From: a virus
Reading direction: 5' to 3' (one strand)
Virus record (IMG/VR): IMGVR_UViG_3300032334_001950
Span: 1-64,000 of that record
Length of the DNA stretch: 64,000 nucleotides
Shown: piece by piece, positions 2,340 to 52,236 of the stretch
How positions within the stretch are numbered: the stretch's first letter is position 1
Layout: each line of letters opens with the position of its first letter
Notes under the pieces: generated by a model
Told to the model about the DNA's origin: nothing
The model's database searches: none
The model's input: only the letters and a program-made list of their open reading frames with translations
Made by a program: the position numbers and the translations under genes

Positions 2340-4925
2340 CTATTCCTCTTCTTTACCCTCAGGAAGAATTGTTCCGTGTGATTTAAACTTTTGATCAGAA
2401 GCCCGTACCGCCAAGCCCTTCACGTAAGCTCGACCTTTCTTCGAAAACGTAAAAACATCATTAAGGCCCAATTGGTTCTTGCAGCAGTCCATCAACAACG
2501 CAACAAAACGCCGCTGCCCCACCGACTTACTCCCTGTATCTTCGCAATACGCAGCATAACTCGGATACAAATGATGGTTGCTATTGCAATACCGCTCCTG
2601 GGCATCCTTTGCAGCGGGAATCTTCTTACCAATGGCTGCAACATTCTCTGGCGCCACAACAATTTCAGACTGCAACCAATCCACCAAATTATTGCTATTC
2701 AACAGGATCTCATTCTTCACCTTACGCAGCGACGGGACCAACTCATTGGTGTCCAGCAAATAACGACGCATATCACGTTCACCCATCTCCAGCACCCAAT
2801 TGACCAAGCCGGGCAAATAATCTTTCCATACCCCACCAATACTGCCCTTATTAATCTTGATCATATCCTTGGCTTCACTACTCTTGTTGTAAAGCGGCCT
2901 ATTGAACTCAATTGTGAGGCGACGGCGGCTTAATCCACTGGTGGGATCACTGGTCTGAATTGGTTCGTTAGCAGCCACCATAACCATACCCTCATAAACA
3001 AAGGGCTCCCCAATAGCCTTCAACTTCTCTTCATAGCGCAAGTTATCACCGCCCGTCAACGCCTTAAAGATCTGAGCAGAACCGCCATAACGCTCCGAGT
3101 CATTGATCAACGTCAGACGCTTATCCTTCAATGCCGAAACCTCAAACCGGCTCTGCTCCAGCTGGTTCAACGTACTACTGGCAAAGTTACCAGCACCCAC
3201 CATGGCGCAACATAAGTTGGTGAAGGTACTCTTACCGCGACCACCAGGACCAATAACTTCAAGAAAACGTTGAATTTCGTTGCCGCGACCCACTAGGCAA
3301 GCTCGTAACCAAGCTCGCAACACCTGTACACGATCTTCATCACCGTATTGTGTACGCAATAACCAATCACGGATGGGGCCGGGTTCAGCAGAAGGTTCAT
3401 ACGGAAAATCAAGACCCCAAGTCAAAAAATTCTGTTGTTTATGGTCACTGAATTCACCGCTGCTTAGGTCAAGTACGCCATTGGAGAAGGCAAGCATGGA
3501 GCTGTCATCATTCCATTCGGAACAAGACAGAAAACCACGCAACAAGAGGGCAACATCATTAACAAGGTTGTTGCTGTAGCCGCCGGGTAACTCCGCCATC
3601 TTAAGGTGAAATTGCACATTATGCAAAAAGTCCTCCCTATGTGCTTGTTTACGCCAAATCCCCTTGGCGCCGTCATACTGCAACCAATTCTCATACTGCG
3701 GGTCATATCGCCATCCATCACGTAACATCAGCGGAAACAGATTATCCGCTAGCTGCGACGAGGGTGGATTCCGTCCTTTCTTAGGAGCGTTACGGTTGAC
3801 GCCACCAGCAGCAAAATGCTCAGGATTCTCGCCATATTCCTCTTCATCCTCATCCTCCTCTGCTTCCTCCTCATCAATCTCCAACTGTGCATTCACCCGC
3901 TGCACAATTGCTTCCATCGATGGCGCAGCATAACCACCAAGATCCACATACCCATCTTCCTTCGCAATAGCCTTCAATGTCTTCAGGCCGCAGCCACCCT
4001 CAGGGTTTGGCCCACCAGGCAATCGCTCAAACGTAGCCCACTTCGCCTCGCAGCACCCATCTTCAAACGCATCAGACTGAGCCGACCACGCCACCCAGGC
4101 ATGCAACAGGCTGTCATCGATCTGGTGCAGAGCCATGCCGATGCGCACCCATTCGTGGTAATCATCAGCACGTTCAACATTCATTGCACCTAGATACTTG
4201 CAAGCATCCTCAATTACTGATTCCAAATGATACTTAGAATCAGTGTCATAATTCAACGTAATATTCTGGTTGATGAAGTTCGTAGCACCAACACCACGCT
4301 TCCGATACTTTGTACTTGGATATGCTTTTGCAATTTCTGCATAAACCCAGTCCGGTAATTCCGGTGGTGATGCAGCAAATTCAAACCCGCCATGCTCTGT
4401 CGTTCGGTAGCCATCCGTCTCAGGGTGTGCGCCGCAAATAGCACCCTGCCTACTTGACCACAACATCTCAAATGGTGCAGCCCCCAGCTTCAACGTGGCC
4501 CGTTCAGGTAGCCGTCCAATGCTGTCATTACTGACGCGGAACAGCATCCGCATGCGACCTTCTTTCCCACTAGCGATCGTTAACGTCGGAGGAAAAATTG
4601 AAGCGATCGGCCCGCCACCAAGCCGTTCAACAAATTCAATCCCTTCCGGCCCATCAAAATCAACCCAGATCAACCCATACTCATTACTAAATTGCCCCGA
4701 TAGCAACCCGATACCTGTAGCCCGCCCCTCCTCAATCTCCTTCTGGATCTGAGTTACAGTCAGTGGATTAGTGGTCCATCCGGGAAGGTATGCTTTCTTC
4801 CCCCGCAATGGGGTCAACGCCCAATCAACGGGTATCCAATCCAGCTTGATTTCACCAGGTTGGAGGTGTTTACGGGGGCGGCGGGGCTCCAGGGTCGCGG
4901 TGGCGCTCACAGGGGGATATGGCAA
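2340..4925 (-). CDS. Primase-helicase (prim-pol, PriCT-2, D5-type SF3 helicase)
   Basis: An 861-residue replication protein. Residues about 30-190 look like a bifunctional primase-polymerase domain: GKKAYLPGW, then WVDFDG with D89 and D91 as likely metal ligands. Residues 250-300 resemble PriCT-2 (DYHEWVRIGMAL, WVAWSAQSDAF). A very acidic linker follows at 350-370. The D5/SF3 helicase comes next, with Walker A GPGGRGKST at 559-567 and LTLINDSE as a Walker B-type segment. It should synthesise primers and unwind DNA at the fork for the PolA encoded downstream. The first codon is TTG with no clear ribosome-binding site, so the exact start is uncertain. Confidence 0.88.
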   Translation of the reverse strand: MPYPPVSATATLEPRRPRKHLQPGEIKLDWIPVDWALTPLRGKKAYLPGWTTNPLTVTQIQKEIEEGRATGIGLLSGQFSNEYGLIWVDFDGPEGIEFVERLGGGPIASIFPPTLTIASGKEGRMRMLFRVSNDSIGRLPERATLKLGAAPFEMLWSSRQGAICGAHPETDGYRTTEHGGFEFAASPPELPDWVYAEIAKAYPSTKYRKRGVGATNFINQNITLNYDTDSKYHLESVIEDACKYLGAMNVERADDYHEWVRIGMALHQIDDSLLHAWVAWSAQSDAFEDGCCEAKWATFERLPGGPNPEGGCGLKTLKAIAKEDGYVDLGGYAAPSMEAIVQRVNAQLEIDEEEAEEDEDEEEYGENPEHFAAGGVNRNAPKKGRNPPSSQLADNLFPLMLRDGWRYDPQYENWLQYDGAKGIWRKQAHREDFLHNVQFHLKMAELPGGYSNNLVNDVALLLRGFLSCSEWNDDSSMLAFSNGVLDLSSGEFSDHKQQNFLTWGLDFPYEPSAEPGPIRDWLLRTQYGDEDRVQVLRAWLRACLVGRGNEIQRFLEVIGPGGRGKSTFTNLCCAMVGAGNFASSTLNQLEQSRFEVSALKDKRLTLINDSERYGGSAQIFKALTGGDNLRYEEKLKAIGEPFVYEGMVMVAANEPIQTSDPTSGLSRRRLTIEFNRPLYNKSSEAKDMIKINKGSIGGVWKDYLPGLVNWVLEMGERDMRRYLLDTNELVPSLRKVKNEILLNSNNLVDWLQSEIVVAPENVAAIGKKIPAAKDAQERYCNSNHHLYPSYAAYCEDTGSKSVGQRRFVALLMDCCKNQLGLNDVFTFSKKGRAYVKGLAVRASDQKFKSHGTILPEGKEEE

Positions 4926-49837: not shown

Positions 49838-49843
49838 TATAAT
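49838..49843 (+). promoter_or_regulatory. -10 box TATAAT of the capsid gene
   Basis: A consensus TATAAT after TGC. Transcription would begin near 49850, at the GNRA hairpin of the capsid leader. Confidence 0.6.
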
Positions 49844-49849
49844 TTTTGC

Positions 49850-49968
49850 AATGGGACGAAAGTTCCAGGCCAGTAATGGCGCGAACCTAGACAACTAGAT
49901 TTAAGTCCATTACGTCCTGGATCTTTTGGGTCCAGGTGTCAGCTAAACCCTTACGCTGAATTACCAAC
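49850..49968 (+). promoter_or_regulatory. Structured 5' leader of the major capsid mRNA
   Basis: The leader starts with GGGAC-GAAA-GTTCC (49853-49866), a hairpin with a GNRA tetraloop. TCCAGG (49864-49869) can pair with CCTGGA (49916-49921), stacked on TAATGG/CCATTA (49874-49879, 49907-49912); CCTGGA can instead pair with TCCAGG at 49931-49936. These are mutually exclusive folds. A role in mRNA stability or translation control of the most abundant protein is inferred. Confidence 0.6.
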
Positions 49969-50060
49969 ATGTTTATTGATAATGACTTTCCTAAGCTGTT
50001 AGGTGCGGAGCTTTATCGCCCCCACCCGGCTTACATCGTCGAAATGGCCGCAGAACCGGT
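49969..50060 (+). CDS. Major capsid protein, exon 1
   Basis: The first 92 bases of the split gene encode MFIDNDFPKLLGAELYRPHP then AYIVEMAAEPV (the last codon is shared with exon 2). FPKLLGAELYRPHPAY and EMAAEPV are typical of capsid proteins of this phage group. Without splicing, translation stops two codons into the intron (GTT GAA TAA). The exon ends at a GGT where P1 of the intron predicts the splice site. Confidence 0.85.
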
Positions 50061-51188
50061 TGAATAACAGCCGCCTTTTTGAGTAATCAAAAAGTGATAA
50101 CCCGGTGAATTGCTGGAAACCCTTCTAAAAGAATTGAACCCTACAACGTAATCAGTAATGATAAGCGTGATAGGTTGAAAAGTTTCAATTGTCGGGCAAT
50201 CAGCAGCCAAGCTTCCTAGGAATAGGTGGAAGGTTCAACGACTAGGGTACACGATCCAGAACGGATTATGAAACCCATTAGCGCCGGGGCTCCCAAAATT
50301 GAATGTAATTTTTAAATTTACGTTCAATGGCAAAATCAGAATTCTGGTAAATAGCTTGTATTGCCTTGGCATCTTTTTTGTATCCGGGCAAATGAAACAA
50401 GTTGCTACCATTTTTGGTAAATTCTGATTTGATCGGCAACTCTACGCTTGATATTAATTTGATCCATGTTTGGAGTTGTACAGCAAATTTGATTGACGCG
50501 GTGGTGATTTTAAAGCGGCGATCTGTTACAGAACCGTCGCCATCCCAAGCCCCACGCAAAAAATGAGGCACTAAGTTTTCTTGCAGTGTTGTCGTGATCT
50601 CTAAAGTTTTAGATTTATTGGGTAAAATACCCAATTTCATCAAATCTTTAACCAAGGCAACTCTACTTAAAACCAATGACTTTTGTGGTAATGATTTTTT
50701 ACCACGTATTGTTGAAATCTTGGTTTGCAATTTTGGGGCATTTGAGCCCAGCTCGTTGCGAAATCTTTCAAGAATTAAACAATCCTCTTCTTTTAATGCG
50801 ATGCGAGCAGCCGTCAATCTAGGATTAATATTTCCATCGGTTGCCAATAGACCAAGAAAATAAGCCTTTCCTTCTGTATCAATTTTTTCAAAATAACGCT
50901 CGTTGTAATTGAAAAAAGAGTAAGTTTCGCCGGCTTTATTTTTTCTAAGCCCCGTCTGCTCAAAAAAAGATAGAAGGTTGAATTTTTTTCTGGCATTGTA
51001 AAAAGCAACCATTGATATATTTAGTTCTTTTGCTGCATCAGCATCAGACATCGTAGCAGAAAGTTCTGCTACCACTTCAAATGAAAGATTTAAGCGATTG
51101 TGCCGAGCCATGGGGAGCGTGATATAGTCTGTGCCCCACCGATGACAAAGGTGGGGAACAATGGATTGGGAAGCTCAATCCTAGCACG
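50061..51188 (+). other. Group I intron in the major capsid gene
   Basis: The intron is 1128 bases. P1: exon CGGTT pairs with AGCCG just inside, with a U-G pair at the splice site. P4: TGCTG (50111-50115) pairs with CAGCA (50201-50205). P7: GACTA (50240-50244) pairs with TAGTC (51125-51129). The conserved P, Q, R and S segments are all present (for example GAATTGCTGGAAAC and GGTTCAACGACTA). The last base is G51188. Removal rebuilds the frame E-P-V-V-V-H-D, matching capsid homologues I know. The large insert between R and S holds an endonuclease gene in the P8 region. Confidence 0.9.
50278..51111 (-). CDS. LAGLIDADG homing endonuclease (antisense in intron)
   Basis: A 277-residue single-chain LAGLIDADG enzyme. 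Motif 1 is YFLGLLATDG (84-93) and motif 2 FLRGAWDGDG (184-193), each ending in the acidic catalytic residue. An HTH-like segment (SDADAAKELNISMVAFYNAR) lies near residues 22-41. It should cut the intronless capsid allele and spread the intron. The gene is opposite to the capsid gene, so it cannot be translated from the late capsid mRNA and needs a minus-strand promoter. Its start lies seven bases from the intron's S segment. Confidence 0.9.
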   Translation of the reverse strand: MARHNRLNLSFEVVAELSATMSDADAAKELNISMVAFYNARKKFNLLSFFEQTGLRKNKAGETYSFFNYNERYFEKIDTEGKAYFLGLLATDGNINPRLTAARIALKEEDCLILERFRNELGSNAPKLQTKISTIRGKKSLPQKSLVLSRVALVKDLMKLGILPNKSKTLEITTTLQENLVPHFLRGAWDGDGSVTDRRFKITTASIKFAVQLQTWIKLISSVELPIKSEFTKNGSNLFHLPGYKKDAKAIQAIYQNSDFAIERKFKNYIQFWEPRR

Positions 51189-52236
51189 TGTTGTTCATGA
51201 CTTCACCAAACAGCCTGGCCAAACCGTTCAGCTGGACCGGTACCGTTTCTGGGGTAACCCCGGTACCAAGGCCAACCGTGAGCGTACCCAGGACCAGACC
51301 ATTGGTACCGCTAACAGCCGTTCCATTGTGAAGGACAAAGTTCTGGTGTCTCTCCGCGAGTACACTGGTCCTGCCGACCCGAACAATGCCAACGCTCCCA
51401 GCACCTTTAAGATTGCTCGGGAAACGCTGATGACCGCTCAGCGCTTGCTGCTGGACACCGGGAACCTTAACATGTTCCACCAGTCCATTGGTTCGCTGAC
51501 CCTGCTGGATGACTACCGCCGCTGGCGTGATCGCGTGCTGCTGGACGAACTGTATAAGTCCTTCTCACGCGGCCAAGCCTCCGATACCCAAGGTGGTTAC
51601 TACTACCCCAACAACCACACCAACTCCAGTGGTACCGTTAGCACCTACACTGCTACCGAATATGCTTCTGAGCGTTACAAGTTTAACGTGAAGAGCGACC
51701 TTCTGGAAGTTGTCAAAGGTCTGCGTAAGCGTAACGTTCCCGTCTTCCAAGATGGTTACTACCGCTGTATTGCTGATCCCTCCTTCATGAAGGATCTGCG
51801 TGCGGACCAAGGCTTCCGTGAAGTTGCGCGTTACCCTGGCATGGGCCAAGGCAACCCCATGATGGGCGCCATGGGTCCCAACCAAGCCATCTACGGTGGT
51901 GGTCAATACGGCCAAGCTGCTTTTGTGGCTGGTGAACCGATCATGCCTACCGGCTTTGTGTTTGAAGGTGTTCGTTTCTTCGAATCGACCAACTTCACCA
52001 ACCTGACCGTCACCTGCGACATCAACGATGGCGCTGGTTCCACGACCCACACCACGCCTCCCGGCCTGTTCTTCGGTCCCCAGGCTGTTGGTATCGGTAT
52101 CGGCGGCCCCAATGCTCAAGTCCTCATTAACAACAACGACGACTTCAGCCGCTTTATCATCCTGATTTGGCAGCTGTACGCCGGTTTTGCTAACCTGAAC
52201 AAGGACTTCTGCACCGTCGCATTCACCATCGTTTGA
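51189..52236 (+). CDS. Major capsid protein, exon 2
   Basis: The rest of the capsid gene. Spliced, it encodes 379 residues with exon 1. VVVHDFTKQPGQTVQLDRYR, then FWGNPGTKANRERTQD and LREYTGPADPNNANAPSTF, resemble HK97-fold capsids of environmental podo- and siphophages. Codon use is more GC-rich and regular than in neighbours, as expected for the most expressed gene. The C-terminus ends NKDFCTVAFTIV. It forms the capsid shell. Confidence 0.87.

Follow-up and report, generated by a model that had tools for sequence, protein, structure and literature searches.

In an S-EIV1-like cyanophage, a mobile group I intron very probably interrupts the major capsid gene at codon 31; it would splice itself out of the transcript and home by means of a LAGLIDADG endonuclease, whose gene lies in the P8 loop on the other strand. 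According to our model, once the gene has been transcribed the ribozyme guide AACAGCCG would hold exon 1 (CGGU, forming P1) and exon 2 (UGU, forming P10), the intron would excise itself, and the capsid reading frame would be rejoined. The endonuclease, in turn, would most likely cut the same site in the capsid gene of a co-infecting relative that lacks the intron, and repair would then copy the intron and its flanks into the cut allele.

A group I intron interrupts the major capsid gene

The window analysed here is the whole stretch of 64,000 nucleotides. Among 50,697 phage records, its capsid gene matched only that of Synechococcus phage S-EIV1 (71% DNA and 68% protein identity), and the window is from an S-EIV1-like cyanophage. 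The structural genes form a plus-strand block that begins at about 36.9 kb and fills the rest of the 72-kb record, in which the endonuclease gene is the sole minus-strand gene, short overlapping or marginal ORFs excepted. The main features are:

49969..50060, plus strand: exon 1 of the major capsid gene, MFIDNDFPKLLGAELYRPHPAYIVEMAAEPV; it ends after the GT of codon 31, whose last T is in exon 2; 100% amino-acid identity to exon 1 of the intronless relative L002
50061..51188, plus strand: 1128-nt group I intron that includes P7.1/P7.2
50278..51111, minus strand: gene for a LAGLIDADG homing endonuclease of 277 aa; its stop codon abuts P3 and the last codons (WEPRR) overlap P3 and P8
51188..51188, plus strand: omega G, the terminal guanosine of the intron
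51189..52236, plus strand: exon 2 of the major capsid gene; 348 full codons follow the split codon

An earlier note on this DNA had proposed that a group I intron splits the major capsid gene, and had named a covariance-model search as a check. That search bears the proposal out: Rfam model RF00028 matched positions 50052-50354 on the plus strand with 53.6 bits, only just over the cut-off of 50, and this was the sole above-threshold Rfam match in the window. Further, P3, P4 and P7 are complete in 13 distinct intron cores. In the host gene, exon 2 matches phrog_1357, a major head protein (E 1e-18), and exon 1 agrees with L002 at 31/31 residues.

The proposed splice at 50060/51189 does rebuild the capsid frame, with 52/52 residues across the junction equal to those of L002. 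When the junction is slid, three positions rejoin the frame at 52/52, and only 50060/51189 has both U before the intron and G at its end. The predicted spliced junction reads CCGGT^TGTTGTTCATGAC. Left unspliced, the capsid frame runs into a stop after 32 residues (GTT GAA TAA, read in the sequence), so that capsid production depends on splicing, as had been suggested. We infer from these sequence features that the ribozyme is active and the intron splices.

Two observations concern the gene's surroundings and its cultured counterpart. The 5' leader of the capsid gene (49842-49968) contains a TCCTGGATC...GGTCCAGG-like hairpin stretch, and a comparable stretch is present in locus L082. Separately, the capsid gene of S-EIV1 (L001 5833-7059, KJ410740 60784-62010) is apparently misannotated: in the record, a minus-strand 'hypothetical protein' lies over its first half and the plus-strand CDS covers its last part only. 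The S-EIV1 capsid frame is nonetheless continuous, apparently from a GTG.

Compensatory changes preserve the ribozyme fold

In the window intron, P3, P4, P5, P7 and P8 are fully closed, and P7.1 and P7.2, which we take to indicate subgroup IA, are present. To these we aligned the introns found at the same site in relatives; the 18 rows (the window, L441-L456 and L288, with L287 omitted for its match at a contig end) comprise 13 distinct cores. The helices listed below are given with the cells paired in that set:

50057..50073, plus strand: P1, in which GCCG of the internal guide (50070-50073) pairs with CGGU of the exon (50057-50060) and the splice site has a U.G pair; 52/52 cells paired
50067..50069, plus strand: P10 guide ACA, partner 3' exon UGU (51189-51191); 33/39 cells paired
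50075..50094, plus strand: P2 hairpin; 3 compensatory pairs, 104/104 cells paired
50101..50107, plus strand: P3 5' strand; 3' strand 50282-50288, within the antisense gene; 91/91 cells
50240..50244, plus strand: P7 5' strand; 3' strand 51125-51129; 65/65 cells
50289..50293, plus strand: P8 5' strand; 3' strand 51114-51118, with the endonuclease gene in the loop
51134..51156, plus strand: P9 hairpin; compensatory changes at all 7 pairs, 91/91 cells

Every pair of P1-P5, P5b, P7, P7.1, P7.2, P8 and P9 forms in 13/13 distinct cores. The P1, P4 and P7 pairings that the earlier note had recognised therefore stand, with P4 paired in 78/78 cells. Since the pairs of P3, P4, P5 and P7 are invariant, they are uninformative by themselves; covariation comes from 19 compensatory pairs in six helices (P2 3, P5b 4, P7.1 3, P7.2 1, P8 1, P9 7). 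P10 comprises only 2-3 bp across the intron family, and P9.1 is paired in 47/78 cells, a low count for which an unreliable alignment partly accounts. P5a and P6 were compared in a set of four sequences, where L343 has three broken pairs, two of P5a and one of P6. At the Rfam gathering threshold, a group I match was obtained in only 4/15 other endonuclease-bearing loci scanned at this site (site B, residue 31), namely L447, L453, L455 and L456.

The P8 loop carries an antisense LAGLIDADG endonuclease gene

The assignment of the opposite-strand ORF to the LAGLIDADG family and to the P8 region, both made in the earlier note, was upheld. The ORF matched LAGLIDADG_3 (PF14528) with 29.4 bits (cut-off 22.5) and the endonuclease family phrog_4645 (E 2e-40). 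Its location in the P8 loop follows from locus L288, which lacks the gene and has a plain short P8 hairpin at that place. The stop codon of the gene directly precedes the P3 3' strand, and the C-terminal residues WEPRR, encoded by P3 and P8, are identical in 16/16 intact copies.

An AlphaFold model (mean pLDDT 73), for which an alignment of four rows was the input, has two alpha-beta-beta-alpha halves after an N-terminal helical part. LAGLIDADG-like helices occupy residues 80-92 and 178-191, and D92, D190 and D192 are invariant in the 4 members. Foldseek returned 42 matches at E <= 0.001, all to LAGLIDADG proteins and mainly to I-DmoI and I-SceI, others being I-Tsp061I, inteins, the bI3 maturase and the LAGLIDADG domain of WhiA. 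A single-sequence search of the PDB gave no match and a profile search gave weak matches only, inteins foremost; no homologue in bacterial genomes was confirmed.

Between the window and L082, the endonuclease genes differ at 11, 4 and 40 first, second and third codon positions (dN 0.022, dS 0.268). Other pairs with computable dS gave omega values of 0.11-0.29, while most comparisons of the window with distant members were saturated. Judged from these substitution patterns, the gene is under purifying selection (omega 0.08-0.29). Both the selection and the predicted fold lead us to reject the idea that the minus-strand ORF is open merely by chance. Most likely, the enzyme cuts the intronless capsid allele at the insertion site.

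The intron behaves as a mobile element

A scan with exon 2 yielded 80 viral loci, 81 with S-EIV1. Three had too little upstream sequence, and the other 78 were uninterrupted at the site, which answers the comparison with intronless homologues that the earlier note had called for. Scans with the intron pattern and the endonuclease family recovered an intron at the identical site in L082 (the L441 contig), L288 and L442-L456. In total, 18 rows (the window, 16 endonuclease-bearing loci and L288) have the intron at the same nucleotide, versus 0/78 homologues interrupted there; thus, the insertion is not a matter of chance.

Comparison with L082 points to recent transfer. Its exon 1 is identical to that of the window (92/92), the 5' intron is 96% and the endonuclease gene 93% identical, whereas the first bases of exon 2 agree at only 49/60 (81-82%). 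This contrast between the flanks suggests that the transfer was recent and that exon 1 was the co-converted side. In addition, CCGGT precedes and T follows the insertion point in 18/18 intron rows; among the 78 intronless alleles, CCGGT occurs in 2 and the complete pattern in 0. This would fit co-conversion, a P1 pairing requirement, or both. At this one site, moreover, the endonuclease gene is found intact, broken (L456) and absent (L288), and such a set is the gain-and-loss cycle expected for homing introns. On the comparative evidence of presence and absence, of an intron more alike than its exons and of co-converted flanks, the intron is mobile.

The capsid gene carries introns at other sites, with endonuclease genes in family-specific orientation

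We carried out two surveys of the gene, using as query the last 85 residues of the capsid protein. These lie downstream of nearly all insertions seen, so introns should bias retrieval little, although a few introns near residue 293-295 are at the edge of the query. Near the window, the best 80 of about 600 matches comprised 14 too short to judge, 53 uninterrupted and 13 interrupted genes; near S-EIV1, the best 80 of about 600 comprised 7 too short, 1 unclear, 60 uninterrupted and 12 interrupted. Because only these best matches were taken, the counts are not population frequencies. The assignments to 'site A' in the surveys (7 near the window, 11 near S-EIV1) are based on a capsid match starting at residue 4-6, and direct reading of 7 loci showed site A itself, where ATG TTY ATY GAT is followed by the intron.

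Across various loci, Rfam group I matches above the cut-off fell at about residues 4, 31, 36, 40, 53, 91, 132, 232, 283 and 293. Junctions with U and G ends were resolved at residues 31, 48, 53 and 89; several other insertion sites are approximate, their junctions being beyond the simple sliding method. Individual genes can hold several introns, three to four in L328, L330 and L357 and four in L165. Thus, the capsid gene of S-EIV1-like phages is a hotspot for group I introns at about ten sites, which appears to be new: in open-access full texts, the literature searched (subscription journals lay outside the scope), we found no description of a multi-site capsid hotspot or of endonuclease orientation bound to family. 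Among single loci, the capsid gene lies in four or five pieces in L165 (3000-5274), L328, L330 and L357. In L343 (1336-4698), introns at residues 31 and 284 both hold an antisense LAGLIDADG gene; the two genes belong to the window's family and are 34-55% identical to the window endonuclease.

The orientation of the endonuclease genes goes with the endonuclease family in this capsid gene. The HNH type at site A was found in 80 loci, 5 of them without the capsid gene, and was antisense in 75/75. For the window's LAGLIDADG family, 17 of the best 80 relatives have an S-EIV1-type capsid gene in view and 17/17 are antisense; 16 of these sit at residue 31, and that of L476 is near 287. The other 63 have no such gene in view, and the rule covers this capsid gene only. 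The second copy in L343 (the L453 contig), at residue 284, is likewise antisense. A different LAGLIDADG type lies on the sense strand in L108, L372, L120, L149, L191, L288 and L328/L330/L357. Rfam, run on 40 loci (L442-L482 minus L471), gave group I matches at gathering in five (L453, L456, L447, L455 and L476). In L469, a group II intron (4286-4451; RF02004, 89 bits) lies beside a distant LAGLIDADG relative.

With this orientation, the antisense gene would be transcribed apart from the late capsid mRNA. A simple scan for a sigma-70-like promoter of the antisense gene gave 0 matches (3.6 expected by chance), and no Shine-Dalgarno-like sequence is visible before its ATG. By eye, the reverse complement of P7 contains a TATATC-like hexamer, weaker in L343. 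At the starts of the antisense HNH genes of L204-L281 there is a 14-bp near-palindrome, TTGTTYATRAACAA (about 1306-1319 in L145), which in some loci varies symmetrically from TTGTTTATAAACAA to TTGTTCATGAACAA (14 loci viewed), as a dimer-binding site might.

Alternative explanations and implications

We weighed the homing intron against three other readings. The insertion could be dead and non-splicing, the true capsid protein starting at GTG 51100, from which a 378-aa frame is open and in frame with exon 2. This we regard as practically excluded: exon 1 is joined straight to exon 2 in 78/78 readable homologues, across a continuous AEPV-VVHD junction, which disposes of the capsid start in exon 2 that the earlier note had put forward as a refuting case; exon 1 equals L002 at 31/31 residues, and compensatory changes keep the ribozyme foldable. 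The earlier note had also ventured that splicing is a timing control, the phage keeping the intron as a regulator that allows capsid synthesis only when the ribozyme can fold. Every full-length capsid chain does require the splice, and the core is well conserved in 13 distinct copies, yet such conservation is expected of any intron that needs to splice. The gene is uninterrupted in 53/66 informative close relatives (among the best 80 of about 600 matches), other relatives have unrelated introns at other positions, and a look at the fold revealed no regulatory element making splicing conditional. Since most close relatives, within those best 80 of about 600, have no capsid intron at all, and the element behaves as a mobile parasite, we reject the timing switch as very improbable.

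A reading that concerns the endonuclease is that it is kept mainly as a weapon: relatives without the intron that infect the same cell would have their capsid gene cut and would yield fewer phage. The target gene is essential, the protein at the site is nearly invariant, the endonuclease is under purifying selection, and the passages of PMC11620839 on PhiPA3 gp210 and PhiKZ offer a precedent for such interference competition. Homing alone, however, accounts for the same data, and broken and absent endonuclease genes at one site fit a selfish gain-and-loss cycle, so we consider a weapon role possible but unlikely. Returning to the homing intron, a broader and rather doubtful extension would be that the S-EIV1-like capsid gene is a contested site, in which many independent introns bring their own endonucleases, and two unrelated families are antisense as a lineage trait; their expression would then be independent of the late capsid transcript and perhaps early, and they would cut the capsid gene of co-infecting rivals. 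If this were true, capsid production would be both target and hostage in cyanophage competition.

In this lineage, of which little is cultured, introns overlooked by gene callers often interrupt the main capsid gene, so that capsid marker surveys and protein catalogues will contain truncated capsids. The lineage also forms a natural series, in which the endonuclease gene is intact, broken or absent and can be sense or antisense, and a capsid gene has from one to at least three introns. This series is useful for testing endonucleases as weapons between phages, and the constant antisense orientation of some families here.

Comparison with known systems

In phages of the T4 and SPO1 type, as in the window, essential genes contain group I introns that encode homing endonucleases; these introns have subgroup IA features, lie in genes of DNA metabolism and carry sense-strand GIY-YIG or HNH endonuclease genes. 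The T4 td, nrdB and nrdD introns and those of SPO1-type phages are listed in the introduction of PMC3706429.

The nearest arrangement is that of mycobacteriophage LittleE (Pope et al. 2013, JF937101). In the account given in the LittleE passages of PMC3706429, an 819-bp intron, probably of group I, lies in the major capsid gene of this tailed phage, has a LAGLIDADG-like ORF on the bottom strand, and was proven by RT-PCR and N-terminal sequencing to splice. With this precedent, the window intron alone is unsurprising. LittleE differs in phage group and host, and is described there as a single case in its cluster. Its ORF is annotated as HNH in the record and is LAGLIDADG_3 by Pfam; BLASTP detected no similarity between it and the window endonuclease, and the LittleE stretch gave no RF00028 match at the gathering threshold. 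PMC3706429 also cites an intron in the capsid gene of Tuc2009.

Antisense endonuclease genes in group I introns are described for myxomycete nuclear rDNA in the sections of PMC9548176 on Didymium L2066 (I-DsqI). As in the window, the gene opposes both ribozyme and host gene, and the intron is mobile; unlike in the window, the endonuclease is of the His-Cys type, lies in P9 and has a spliceosomal intron in its gene, and the host gene is an rRNA gene of a eukaryote. S-EIV1 (KJ410740) is the closest cultured relative, with a 68% identical capsid, and differs from the window in being free of the intron, its capsid frame running continuously across the site.
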